Assembly (NCBI GenBank): GCA_003605175.1
Contig: QWDA01000001.1
Coordinates: 496,001 to 560,000, forward strand
Origin: Paracoccaceae bacterium
GTDB taxonomy: Bacteria; Pseudomonadota; Alphaproteobacteria; Rhodobacterales; Rhodobacteraceae
Reading direction: 5' to 3'
DNA length: 64,000 bases
The notes beneath the pieces were generated by a model. The model did no database searches. It was not told where the DNA came from and saw only the letters and a program-made list of their open reading frames with translations. The number at the start of each line of letters is the position of its first letter. Positions within the stretch are counted from its first letter, which is position 1. Shown piece after piece: positions 1,745-46,977 of the stretch. A program made the position numbers and the translations under genes.

Positions 1745-4700
1745 ATGAAATCCTCGGGTCACATCACCATTTCCGGCGCGCCCGAGGGGTTCGACGCCGG
1801 GCTTCTCATGGCCGAGGTGGAGAGGAACGGCCGCGCGGCGATCCATGTGGCGCGCGACGACAAGCGAATGGCGGCGATGGCGGCGGCGCTCAGGCTGCGC
1901 GCGCCCGACCTGCCGGTGATCACGCTGCCGGGCTGGGATTGCCTGCCCTATGACCGGGTGTCGCCCAATGCCGAGATCTCGGCTACGCGGATGGCGACCC
2001 TGGCGCTTCTCGTTCATGGCGGGCCGTCGCGCTTCGTGCTCCTGACCACGCTGAACGCGGCGACGCAGCGGATGCCCGCGCGGGAGATTCTGCGCGAGGC
2101 GGCCTTTGCGGCGCGGGTGGGGGACCGGATCGACGAGGAGAGCTTGCGGACCTTCCTCGTGCGGATGGGTTTCGTTCAGGCGCCGACTGTGACCGAGCCG
2201 GGCGACTATGCGGTGCGCGGCGGGATCATCGACATCTTTCCGCCAGGCGAGGCCGGGCCGATCCGGCTCGACCTTTTCGGCGACGTGCTCGACGGCGCGC
2301 GGCGGTTCGATGCGGCGAGCCAGAGGACCACGGAGAAGCTCGACCGTGTGGAACTGGCGCCGGTCTCCGAGGTGATCCTGGACGATGCGGCGATCACCCG
2401 GTTCCGGCAGAACTACCGGGCCGAGTTCGGCTCGGCCGGCACCGACGACCCGCTCTACGAGGCGGTCAGCGCGGGGCGGAAGCACGCGGGCGTGGAACAC
2501 TGGCTGCCGTTTTTCCATGCGCGGCTGGAGACGCTGTTCGATTACCTGCCCGAGGTGCCGGTGGTTCTCGACGACCAGGTGACGCCGCAGCGGCTGTCGC
2601 GCTGGGAGGCGATCGACGACCAGTACGATGCGCGCCGCGAGGCGCTGAAGGCGAAGTCGCGGCACGACACGATCTACAAGCCGTGCCCGCCAGGGCTGCT
2701 CTATCTCGACGACGCGGCCTGGACCGATGCGCTGGACGGGCGGCGCGTGGTGCAGCTCGCTGTCCTGCCGCAGCCGACCGGGCCGGGCGTCACCGATGCC
2801 GGTGGCCGGATCGGGCGGGATTTCGCGCCGGAGCGGCAGAACGAGAATATCAGCCTGTTCGGGGCACTGGTCGACCATATCGGCAAGCGGCGGCAGATTG
2901 GGCCGGTGGTCATCGCCAGCTATTCTGAGGGCGCGCGCGAGCGGCTGCAGGGGCTCCTGGAGGACCAGGGCCTTGGCGGCACGGGCTTCATCGAAGATCT
3001 GCGCGGGGCGAGGGACGGGGTTCACCTGATCGTCTGGGGGCTGGAGCACGGCTTCGAGGGCGGTGGGCTCACGGTGATCGCCGAGCAGGACGTGCTGGGC
3101 GACCGGCTGATCCGGGGCCCGCGCCGGAAACGGCGGGCCGAGAACTTCCTCACCGAGCACCAGAGCCTGTCGCCGGGCGACCTGATCGTCCATGTGGACC
3201 ACGGGGTAGGCCGCTACATGGGGCTCGAAGTGGTCACCGCGCTGGGGGCGGCGCATGAATGCCTGCATCTGGAGTATGCGGGCGGCGACCGGCTCTACCT
3301 GCCGGTGGAGAATATCGAGCTCCTCACCCGCTACGGGCATGAGGAGGGGCTCCTCGACAAGCTCGGCGGCGGCGCCTGGCAGGCGAAGAAGGCCCGGCTC
3401 AAGGCGCGGATCCGCGAGATCGCAGACCGGCTGATCCGGGTGGCGGCGGAACGGCATCTCAGGAAGGGCCGGATCCTCGCCCCGCCCGATGGCATGTGGG
3501 AGGCGTTTTCGGCGCGGTTCCCCTACGAGGAGACCGACGACCAGCTTTTGGCCATCGAGGCGGTGATGGAGGATCTATCCTCCGGCACTCCGATGGACCG
3601 GCTGATCTGCGGCGATGTGGGCTTCGGCAAGACCGAAGTGGCGATGCGCGCGGCCTTCGTCGCGGCACTGTCCGGTGCGCAGGTGGCGGTGATAGCGCCG
3701 ACGACATTGCTCGCCCGGCAGCACTTCAAGACCTTCGCCGAGCGGTTTCGGGGCTTTCCGGTGAAGGTGCGGCAATTGTCGCGCTTCGTCGGCACAAAAG
3801 AGGCGGCGGCGACCCGCGACGGGCTGGCGACTGGCGAGGTGGATATCGTGATCGGCACCCATGCGGTGCTGGCGAAATCGGTGAGGTTCCGCGATCTCGG
3901 GCTGCTGATCGTCGACGAGGAGCAGCATTTCGGTGTCGGTCACAAGGAGCGGCTGAAGGAACTGCGCTCGGACGTGCATGTGCTGACGCTGACCGCCACG
4001 CCGATCCCGCGGACGTTGCAGATGTCGCTGGTGGGCGTGCGGGACCTCTCGATTATCGGCACGCCGCCGGTCGACCGCCTGGCGATCCGCACCTATGTCT
4101 CGGAATTCGACACGGTGACGATCCGCGAGGCGCTCCTGCGCGAGCACTACCGGGGCGGGCAGTCGTTCTTCGTGGTGCCGCGAATCGCGGACCTGGCCGA
4201 GATGGAGGCGTTCCTGCGCGAGGAAGTGCCGGAGGTGACCTTCATCACCGCACATGGGCAGATGGCGGCGGGCGAACTCGACGACCGCATGAACGCCTTC
4301 TACGACGGCAAATACGACGTGCTGCTGGCGACGACCATCGTGGAGTCGGGGCTCGACATTCCAACCGCCAATACCATGATCGTGCATCGCGCCGACATGT
4401 ACGGGTTGGCGCAGCTCTACCAGATCAGGGGCCGCGTGGGCCGCGCGAAGACGCGGGCCTATGCCTATCTCACGACGAAGCCGCGCGCGAAGCTGACGCC
4501 CACTGCCGAGAAGCGGCTGCGCGTCCTGTCCTCGCTCGACTCGCTCGGCGCCGGGTTCTCGCTGGCCTCGCAGGATCTCGATATCCGCGGCGCCGGGAAT
4601 CTGATTGGCGAGGAGCAGTCGGGCCAGATCCGCGAGGTGGGCTACGAGTTGTACCAGTCGATGCTGGAGGAGGCGATCGCCAAGATCCGCTCGGGCCAGC

Positions 4701-45566: not shown

Positions 45567-46268
45567 ATGCGGATCCTTTCCATCCTGTGCGCCTGCGTGG
45601 CGCTTGTCGGCTGCGACGGTGTGGTCGTGTCGGACGGCGGCGGCACGGCGCCCACGAGCCAATCCTCCTCCGGCCCCTCGCGGGGCTCGCTCCAGATGTT
45701 CCGGGCGGTGGTGGCGCGGGTCGAGCCGGTGGCCGAACAGGTCTGCCGCGAACGGACCCGGGGCGCGAACTGCAATTTCAAGATCGAGGTCGTCGACGAT
45801 CCGCGGGAGCCGCCCAACGCATATCAGCGGCTCGACCAGAGCGGGCGTCCGGTGCTGGGCTTCACCGTGGCGCTGATCGCGGATGTGCAGAATGCCGACG
45901 AGCTGGCCTTCGTGATGGGCCACGAGGCGTCGCACCATATCGAGGGGCATATCCCGCAGACCCAGCAGCGGGCGATCGAGGGCGCTCTTCTGGGCAGCGT
46001 GGTTGCGACCGTGCTGGGCGGCAGCGCCGAGACGGTGCAGACGGCGCAGCGGATCGGCGGCACGGTGGGCGCGCGGCGATTCGCCAAGGAATTCGAGCTG
46101 GAGGCCGATGCGCTGGGCACTGTGATCACCAAGCGCGCCGGGTTCGACCCGGTTCGCGGCGCGCAGTATTTCAGCCGTATCCCCGATCCGGGCAACCAGT
46201 TCCTTGGCACCCACCCGCCGAACAGCCAGCGGATTGCCACCGTGAGGCGTGTGGCGGCCTCGCTCTGA
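45567..46268 (+). CDS. M48-family zinc metalloprotease lipoprotein
   Basis: The 233-residue protein starts with a lipoprotein signal (MRILSILCACVALVGC, lipobox ending at Cys16) and carries the HExxH zinc motif in AFVMGHEASHHIEGH with the third ligand in EFELEADALG, as in the Oma1/YcaL/BepA branch of M48 proteases. Such proteins act on outer-membrane or periplasmic protein quality control. The C-terminal THPPNSQRIATVRR motif is typical of this branch. No TPR domain follows, so it is the short form. It ends 10 bases before the FNR-type box of the next unit. Confidence 0.9.
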   Translation: MRILSILCACVALVGCDGVVVSDGGGTAPTSQSSSGPSRGSLQMFRAVVARVEPVAEQVCRERTRGANCNFKIEVVDDPREPPNAYQRLDQSGRPVLGFTVALIADVQNADELAFVMGHEASHHIEGHIPQTQQRAIEGALLGSVVATVLGGSAETVQTAQRIGGTVGARRFAKEFELEADALGTVITKRAGFDPVRGAQYFSRIPDPGNQFLGTHPPNSQRIATVRRVAASL

Positions 46269-46278
46269 CAGCCTTGAA

Positions 46279-46292
46279 TTGATCTCGATCAA
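46279..46292. promoter_or_regulatory. Perfect FNR/FnrL-type box upstream of the DUF6455 pair
   Basis: TTGATCTCGATCAA is an exact TTGAT-N4-ATCAA palindrome, the consensus of FNR/FnrL/FixK-type regulators in Rhodobacterales. It lies 58 bases before the first DUF6455 start codon and after the stop of the protease gene, so it is positioned for activation under low oxygen. A match this exact, intergenic and upstream of a same-strand gene pair is unlikely to be chance. Confidence 0.78.
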
Positions 46293-46350
46293 GGCGTTTC
46301 ACCGCTTTCCGTGAGAGCCTCTCCCGGCATTGAGCCAGGAGGGGCCCGCC

Positions 46351-46611
46351 ATGTGCAACGCATCCCGATTCGAACAGCATGCCCGGCTAGTCGCCCGCAT
46401 GGGAGATGCGCTCGGGGTGGATCTCGAGACCCGCGTGCAATCCGGGGAGTTGCCGCCGGAGGTTCTCGACGATCTCGTCTTCGAATGCCTGGGATGCCCG
46501 AAGCCGGGCACGTGCGAACGCTGGCTCGATGCGCAAGAGGAGCCCGTGACGGCGGCGCCGGAATACTGCCGCAACAAGATTGCGCTCGAAGCGATGGCGG
46601 CGCAGCGGTGA
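46351..46611 (+). CDS. DUF6455-type cysteine-rich small protein (first of a pair)
   Basis: The 86-residue protein starts at ATG 46351 after an AGGAGG ribosome-binding site. Its helical N-terminus is followed by CLGCPKPGTCERW and, 17 residues on, EYCRNK. The same Cys-x2-Cys-x5-Cys ... Tyr-Cys pattern occurs in the next gene. This pattern and size fit the DUF6455 family of Rhodobacterales as I recall it. Four cysteines could bind a metal or form disulfides; no signal peptide is seen, so a cytoplasmic metal site is more likely. An FNR-type box precedes it. Confidence 0.75.
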   Translation: MCNASRFEQHARLVARMGDALGVDLETRVQSGELPPEVLDDLVFECLGCPKPGTCERWLDAQEEPVTAAPEYCRNKIALEAMAAQR

Positions 46612-46829
46612 CTGGCGCCGGGGCTGCCTGGCGGATGGAGGCGATGTGCGACGCTCTGGGCGTGCGCGTGTCGCCGGAGGAGCACGCTGTCATGGCGGGC
46701 CGATGCGCCAATTGCGACAAGGGCGAGCTTTGCCGTCTTTGGCGGATCGTGGGCGTTTCCGAACCGGGCCGGGCGCCGGGCTATTGCCTGAACGCCGAAA
46801 AGATCGAGGCGTTGGCGCTGGCCGGCTAG
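46608..46829 (+). CDS. DUF6455-type cysteine-rich small protein (second of a pair)
   Basis: A 73-residue paralogue of the preceding gene, starting with GTG that overlaps the stop (GTGA). It contains CANCDKGELCRLW and GYCLNAEKIEALA, matching the first protein's spacing, but has a shorter N-terminus. A strong imperfect hairpin follows (46851-46885). Expected to be co-transcribed with the first copy from the FNR-boxed promoter. Confidence 0.73.
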   Translation: MTGAGAAWRMEAMCDALGVRVSPEEHAVMAGRCANCDKGELCRLWRIVGVSEPGRAPGYCLNAEKIEALALAG

Positions 46830-46850
46830 GCCCGGCGTCGGGGAGCAGGT

Positions 46851-46885
46851 TTCGCGTCCGGTGCCCCAGGGGCTCCGGGCGCGAA
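46851..46885. terminator. Long imperfect hairpin after the DUF6455 pair
   Basis: Arms 46851-46867 and 46869-46885 pair over 17 bases with two mismatches (TTCGCG... / ...CGCGAA). It lies 21 bases after the second DUF6455 stop and before malQ; no T-tract follows. The remaining intergenic stretch to 46977 shows nothing further. Confidence 0.55.
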
Positions 46886-46977
46886 ACGCGTTCGGGACAT
46901 GCGCTTTTCGCCATTGAACCCCTTGGATTTCCGCGTTTCTATCGTTTCGAACAGGCGGTGAGCGGGGATCCGGAAAT

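Follow-up and report, generated by a model that had tools for sequence, protein, structure and literature searches.

The window analysed here is a stretch of 64,000 nucleotides from a member of the Rhodobacteraceae, in which two small genes follow a perfect FNR-type box on the forward strand. The features of this locus, together with the basis on which each was placed, are as follows:

46279..46292, + strand: FNR/FixK-type box TTGATCTCGATCAA, a perfect TTGATN4ATCAA match
46315..46320, + strand: inferred -10 element GAGCCT, with A at position 2 and T at position 6 (profile of 193 promoters)
46327..46327, + strand: predicted transcription start (arithmetic, assuming that the box centre is at -41.5)
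46337..46342, + strand: AGGAGG, Shine-Dalgarno-like, ahead of gene 1 (sequence)
46351..46611, + strand: gene 1, a DUF6455 protein of 86 aa, of the type that usually stands first in arrays (PF20056, AlphaFold2, tree)
46608..46829, + strand: gene 2, a DUF6455 paralogue of 73 aa, whose GTG start overlaps the stop of gene 1 (PF20056, AlphaFold2, tree)
46849..46887, + strand: strong stem-loop 3′ of gene 2, a possible transcript end (RNA fold energy)

The box lies 58 bases upstream of gene 1, and the two genes share the sequence GTGA (46608-46611), within which gene 2 starts. On the 5′ side the pair is preceded by an M48 peptidase gene of the same strand, which ends at 46268, and on the 3′ side it is followed by a 4-alpha-glucanotransferase gene. 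The stem-loop is the main stem of a 79-base fold (-45.6 kcal/mol, z -2.91); this hairpin is very stable and GC-rich and has no T-run, and it was not picked up by a scan for T-run terminators. An earlier note on this DNA had given the box, its coordinates, the gap, the two protein lengths and the overlap exactly as they were found here, and the Cys-x2-Cys-x5-Cys ... Tyr-Cys pattern that it pointed out is present in both gene products. It went astray in taking this motif for the only thing that the two proteins have in common, since both of them belong to the Pfam family PF20056 (DUF6455).

DUF6455 is a named but uncharacterised Pfam family, to which no function is given. Gene 1 matches it with an E value of 5e-26 (91 bits) and gene 2 with 8.2e-8 (32.7 bits), the curated cut-off being 23.7; of the four DUF6455 matches in the source genome, only these two exceed the family cut-off. 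The profile is also matched by all 108 members of the member set A3. Because genes 1 and 2 fall into one and the same family, they are true paralogues, as the earlier note had supposed, and gene 2 is a short member which shows a gap of ten columns after the first helix in the alignment with gene 1. In the available part of the literature, DUF6455 is represented by a single line in an ethylene-response table of Azospirillum brasilense, with a log2 change of 1.67.

The family was found in 115 of 198 sampled Rhodobacteraceae genomes (E 0.001), in 114 of them above the cut-off, and in 29 of 398 genomes of a wider draw across the phylum. Loci were fetched from the genomes with matches and also from 80 named contigs, which belong to Rhodobacteraceae (Ruegeria, Roseovarius and Mameliella among them) except for one titled Enemella. 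The latter record (JAFKDC010000028.1, L160), titled Enemella evansiae, carries a DUF6455 locus of the typical Rhodobacteraceae kind, and its title is probably wrong.

Genes of this family commonly form arrays. Among the 60 best-scoring loci, one copy was found in 16, two in 23, three in 17 and four in 4, and the 80 named loci contain one copy in 33 cases, two in 12, three in 34 and four in one. With starts set at the nearest plausible ATG or GTG, the 158 adjacent pairs include 52 that overlap and 61 more that are less than 20 bases apart, 113 in total. The idea that the overlap of genes 1 and 2 is unusual was therefore dropped. As for the translational coupling that had been read from it, the tight spacing itself stands and, being typical across the family, fits a joint expression of the pair. 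The heterodimer that the earlier note derived from the coupling does not follow from this spacing, and 16 of the 60 best-scoring loci carry a single copy. A tree of 233 domains sets most first copies apart from most of the second and third ones; a clade of 104 domains (support 0.71) contains 94 first copies, along with 7 second and 3 fourth ones. Gene 1 is placed among the first copies, while gene 2 groups with the second copy of a genome of the same genus (L060) and with mixed single, second and third copies. The copies within an array are thus largely distinct conserved types, which points to a division of labour between them.

Two smaller groups were also observed within the family. Several of the weaker places described below (L290-L295, L297) look like one divergent branch, which has the pattern C-x2-C...C...FC-x-N, occurs as second loci without the FNR box, and may have another role. 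The single-copy loci L212, L214, L266-L270, L272 and L274 carry an FNR box of their own and have other common neighbours (clusters F33-F35), which include what we take to be a purB-like gene.

Judged on the window alone, the box is only suggestive: there is one site within one mismatch of TTGATN4ATCAA, and shuffled windows contain 0.35 such sites on average, with at least one in 31 of 100 shuffles. In the whole genome of 4.09 Mb there are seven perfect sites, compared with one for the reversed pattern. The comparison of loci is far more informative. Of 222 DUF6455 clusters, 15 were dropped as duplicates or for having less than 150 bases upstream; the 207 distinct ones that remained, most of them picked for the best DUF6455 score, were searched for the box 30-130 bases before the profile start. 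A complete TTGAYN4RTCAA box (10/10) stands upstream of 164 of the 207, and a box of 9/10 or better upstream of 193. As controls, the upstream windows of neighbouring genes contain it in only 10 of 2363 cases (10/10) and 29 of 2363 (9/10 or better), and 33,272 random windows in 0.06% and 0.84%, respectively. The clusters are interrelated, so these counts are not independent events, although the box is not shared by the neighbours of the same clusters. At 9/10 or better, it is found in 58/60 of the best-scoring clusters, 66/66 of the named ones, 53/61 of the other Rhodobacteraceae loci, 10/10 of the selected second loci, 5/9 of those outside the family Rhodobacteraceae, and 1/1 for the window. 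This conservation makes the box solid, and a chance arrangement is contradicted by 193 of 207 against 29 of 2363.

The exceptions are also instructive. The 14 of 207 clusters without a 9/10 box are mostly weak DUF6455 matches. Fifteen weaker places were added later, of which 11 were second places and the other four the sole match in their genomes; 14 gave a cluster (L289 being without a profile match), and the box was present in two and missing in 12 of these 14, which were kept out of the counts of 207, 233 and 193. Since the box is mostly missing in weak and divergent clusters, it is a trait of the DUF6455 core, gene 1 included, and not of the divergent branch.

The promoter region was then aligned on the box. 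The resulting profile comprises 193 promoters, the 14 of 207 clusters without a box being left out, so that the choice of promoters itself makes the box conserved in it, which does not apply to the -10-like bases or the GG. GG directly follows the box (G in 67% and 96%), and A predominates at offset 37 (73%) and T at offset 41 (76%); the window carries both A and T there (GAGCCT). In a class II FNR promoter, the centre of the activator box lies at -41.5. If the A and T are taken as positions 2 and 6 of a -10 element, the box centre would fall at -41.5, that is, at class II spacing, and transcription would be predicted to start at 46327. A scan with the sigma-70 consensus gave no promoter at the locus, as is expected of an activator-dependent promoter. 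In addition, CTG is favoured at box offsets 5-7 in the 193 promoters; this and the GG that follows the box may reflect what one particular CRP/FNR protein prefers.

An FNR-type regulator is encoded in the same genome. A CRP/FNR-family protein with the N-terminal sequence CADCPIRHRAVCARC, in which the N-terminal cysteines are clustered, adjoins hemN, and ccoN lies nearby. A perfect box is located between hemN and the regulator gene (L280:4621-7031, contig C29 of the source genome), and two further TTGAYN4RTCAA boxes, 32 bases apart, directly precede ccoN, where a divergent ORF, presumably for a universal stress protein, begins; the other gene names here come from Pfam or NCBIfam. The boxes at hemN/regulator and at ccoN are useful internal positive controls. 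The FNR-type control proposed in the earlier note thus gains from the agreement between conserved box and promoter spacing, and FNR-type regulation of the DUF6455 pair is well supported by the sequences.

The box upstream, of the TTGAYN4RTCAA form that marks members of the FNR/FnrL regulon, is of the same type as that of the FnrL regulons of Rhodobacter and Dinoroseobacter, as given in the available parts of PMC2908626, PMC4634722, PMC4263372 and PMC5398030, and the neighbourhood of fnrL, a hem gene, usp and ccoNOQP described there for R. sphaeroides resembles that in the source genome. DUF6455 is not named among the FnrL targets in these parts of the four papers, where several targets are listed just as "hypothetical protein". 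When the boxes published in the parts available were compared, neither the hypothetical proteins under FnrL in R. sphaeroides and R. capsulatus nor the genes targeted by FixK2 in B. diazoefficiens could be matched to DUF6455. L214 and RSP0466 do share the 14-mer TTGATGTAGGTCAA, but probably by coincidence; the source, as far as available, describes RSP0466 as a putative lipid carrier protein. No report of FNR control of DUF6455 was found in the open-access literature, in which the conserved FNR promoter of this family appears to be unreported.

The alignments also show four conserved cysteines in the family. They are C46, C49, C55 and C73 in gene 1, and C33, C36, C42 and C60 in gene 2. All four are invariant in 61 of 61 first copies; in the other 70 copies, the first is kept in 70, the second in 62, the third in 70 and the fourth in 69. 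Among the 233 domains, 232 have four or more cysteines and 229 keep the four in one of two spacings, namely C-x2-C-x5-C-x(9-26)-C in 217 and C-x4-C-x3-C plus the fourth cysteine in 12, where the second cysteine is lost and a new one appears two residues on. Although profile searches favour conserved columns, such a bias does not explain a shifted replacement, and the fact that the shifted cysteine takes the place of the lost one argues for a bound metal. The proteins of metal-site size suspected earlier therefore do have cysteines that are conserved in relatives (229 of 233 domains), where a lack of conservation would have refuted the earlier note, and a four-cysteine metal site in DUF6455 proteins is likely, as read from these patterns.

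The AlphaFold2 models are confident and agree in general character: gene 1 is predicted with five helices (mean pLDDT 89.8) and gene 2 with four (mean pLDDT 93.1), and both are compact and helical, with the four cysteines near helix ends. Compared with the PDB, neither model had a match below E 1.7, and the best VIA Z for gene 1 was 2.5. Profile and fold searches of the PDB yielded nothing above noise, and no match to an Fe-S protein by sequence or fold; the lack of a fold match is no proof of a new fold. Across families, the 108 members gave scattered matches, which were set aside: DUF1707/SHOCT-like in four (best E 1.2e-5), BssS in two (4.6e-4), DNA_ligase_ZBD in two (best E 0.0055), ANCHR-like_BBOX in two (0.055), and singles. 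Gene 2 itself weakly matches threonine dehydrogenase (E 0.0014) and FeoC (E 0.053). The former was found in one of the 108 members (0.0014), among other cross-family matches; the latter recurs in no other of the 108.

Two known kinds of [4Fe-4S] site have the C-x2-C-x5-C core. In E. coli FeoC, CX4CX2CX5C forms a [4Fe-4S] cluster, according to the available part of PMC8749426, and the [4Fe-4S] site of WhiB1 is made up of C9, C37, C40 and C46, according to that of PMC6282962. WhiB-like (Wbl) proteins, as characterised there, and DUF6455 proteins are alike in being small and helical, with four invariant cysteines, a C-x2-C-x5-C core and many paralogues. In contrast, the fourth cysteine of DUF6455 lies downstream rather than upstream of the core, and there is no match in sequence or fold. 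The Wbl motif G[VI]WGG is absent from all 233 DUF6455 domains; the Wbl order C-x(n)-C-x2-C-x5-C, taken as a loose pattern, fits 15 of 233, with an actual or possible extra cysteine. Wbl membership was rejected on account of the missing motif and the different cysteine order. FeoC resembles the DUF6455 proteins in being small and having the C-x2-C-x5-C core (PMC8749426, available part), and gene 2 matches it weakly, but it has an extra cysteine five residues upstream. This order occurs in one of 233 domains, and the window locus is not beside feoAB, so FeoC membership was likewise rejected. The cysteine order of endonuclease III was rejected as well (0 of 233 domains). Because the defining features of FeoC and Wbl fail here, the likeness would be one of working and not of membership: by analogy, DUF6455 may "work like" FeoC or WhiB1.

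Taken together, these observations suggest that the pair probably helps cells to live at low oxygen. When oxygen is low, the FNR-type regulator of the source genome would bind the predicted site at 46279-46292 and activate a class II promoter from which both genes would be transcribed together; this much is strongly indicated by the sequence. Each protein would be a small helical domain with a single metal centre bound by its four cysteines. The most likely guess for this centre is an oxygen-labile [4Fe-4S] cluster, a guess drawn from C-x2-C-x5-C being the core of the known FeoC and WhiB1 [4Fe-4S] sites. It may further be guessed that a change of the cluster with O2 or NO would alter the binding to a partner protein, and that the proteins would act as redox/NO-responsive accessories in microoxic cbb3-dependent respiration and not as enzymes. 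To this whole account, FNR-switched paralogues serving as low-oxygen [4Fe-4S] redox/NO-responsive accessory proteins, a probability of roughly 0.45 is given. A bolder version would see in the DUF6455 arrays an independently evolved alphaproteobacterial counterpart of the WhiB-like proteins, with FNR/FixK-switched [4Fe-4S] paralogues that sense O2 and NO and act through protein partners to tune transcription or respiration, and it is rather unlikely.

Zinc is the serious rival to [4Fe-4S]. With the same regulation, the four cysteines would hold structural zinc, and the proteins would be small adaptors that bind protein or nucleic acid at low oxygen. The protein size, the compact helical models with cysteines near helix ends, and the shifted spacing tolerated in 12 of 233 domains would all suit it, for four-cysteine sites of such size hold zinc too. 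The same can be said of the weak, unrepeated matches to threonine dehydrogenase, where gene 2 aligns with what is presumably the structural zinc lobe, and of those to DNA_ligase_ZBD and ANCHR-like_BBOX. However, C-x2-C-x5-C gives the impression of being commoner in [4Fe-4S] than in zinc sites, and no match of the window proteins to a zinc-binding family was reported above the cut-off. Structural zinc is judged somewhat less probable than the cluster.

The link with low oxygen is drawn from the genomic setting. Among the 198 genomes, DUF6455 occurs in 114 of 178 with ccoN and in 1 of 20 without (Fisher p 2e-7, kinship ignored); ccoN was called at E 1e-60, 169 of the 178 genomes also being above the model cut-off, and the source genome has it. 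An improbable alternative is that the proteins help cbb3 oxidase or haem enzymes to mature or deliver metal to them, with iron or copper in transit. Besides the tracking of ccoN, it is favoured by Mesorhizobium ciceri, where ccoS and a gene for a cation P-type ATPase lie about 7 kb from DUF6455. Yet 64 of the 178 ccoN genomes do without DUF6455, and no cco gene is found among the recognised conserved neighbour clusters. The P-type ATPases near L247/L248, once considered as copper pumps of cbb3 assembly, have cation-transporter and not heavy-metal domains, so that this idea was wrong.

Among the conserved neighbours in Rhodobacteraceae, the M48 peptidase gene lies upstream and two genes, presumably RimO-like and CDGSH-like, lie downstream on the other strand; they look like synteny rather than an operon, and no conserved operon partner was found among the neighbour clusters. 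M. ciceri is more telling, where DUF6455 stands between universal stress protein and CBS-domain genes, has its own box TTGATCGAGATCAA 51 bases upstream, and has fixJ, a PAS protein, a Crp/Fnr regulator, pseudoazurin, nirK and ccoS within about 7 kb.

A dedicated factor of denitrification or NO detoxification is judged slightly less probable than the role in maturation or metal delivery. It would agree with DUF6455 being present in 42 of 53 genomes with nosZ against 73 of 145 without (kinship ignored), and with nirK, pseudoazurin and NnrS near DUF6455 on M. ciceri plasmids. nosZ was called with TIGR04246 at E 1e-60, the model's own cut-off being passed by just 3 of 198 genomes. However, the effect is smaller within the ccoN genomes (42/53 with nosZ against 72/125 without, p 0.006), 73 nosZ-free genomes retain DUF6455, and the source genome has no TIGR04246 match at E 1e-60. 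Of the anaerobic or nitrogen-oxide function proposed at first, the anaerobic part holds to some extent, with ccoN tracked strongly, nosZ more weakly, and the fixJ/nirK/ccoS setting in M. ciceri; for the source genome, with ccoN but without a nosZ match, a specifically nitrogen-oxide function is unsupported. General low-oxygen respiration suits the phyletic pattern better than denitrification does. Finally, a mere chance arrangement of box and small ORFs, such as the shuffles of the window alone might allow, has practically no likelihood, given that protein and box alike are conserved in most of the 207 clusters.

The wider interest lies in the finding that the core members of an uncharacterised family, present in more than half of the sampled Rhodobacteraceae genomes, carry an FNR box with great consistency. 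DUF6455 can now be studied in a definite physiological setting, the switch to low oxygen, and its genes become candidates for the unexplained parts of the FNR and FixK regulons. If the cysteines do hold an O2/NO-labile cluster, the WhiB-like design would have been invented independently. On the M. ciceri plasmid, further TTGATN4ATCAA boxes (L276:6907-6920, 4312-4325) precede a universal stress gene and a small hypothetical gene that adjoins fixJ, and a DUF1858 gene is present in the same region.
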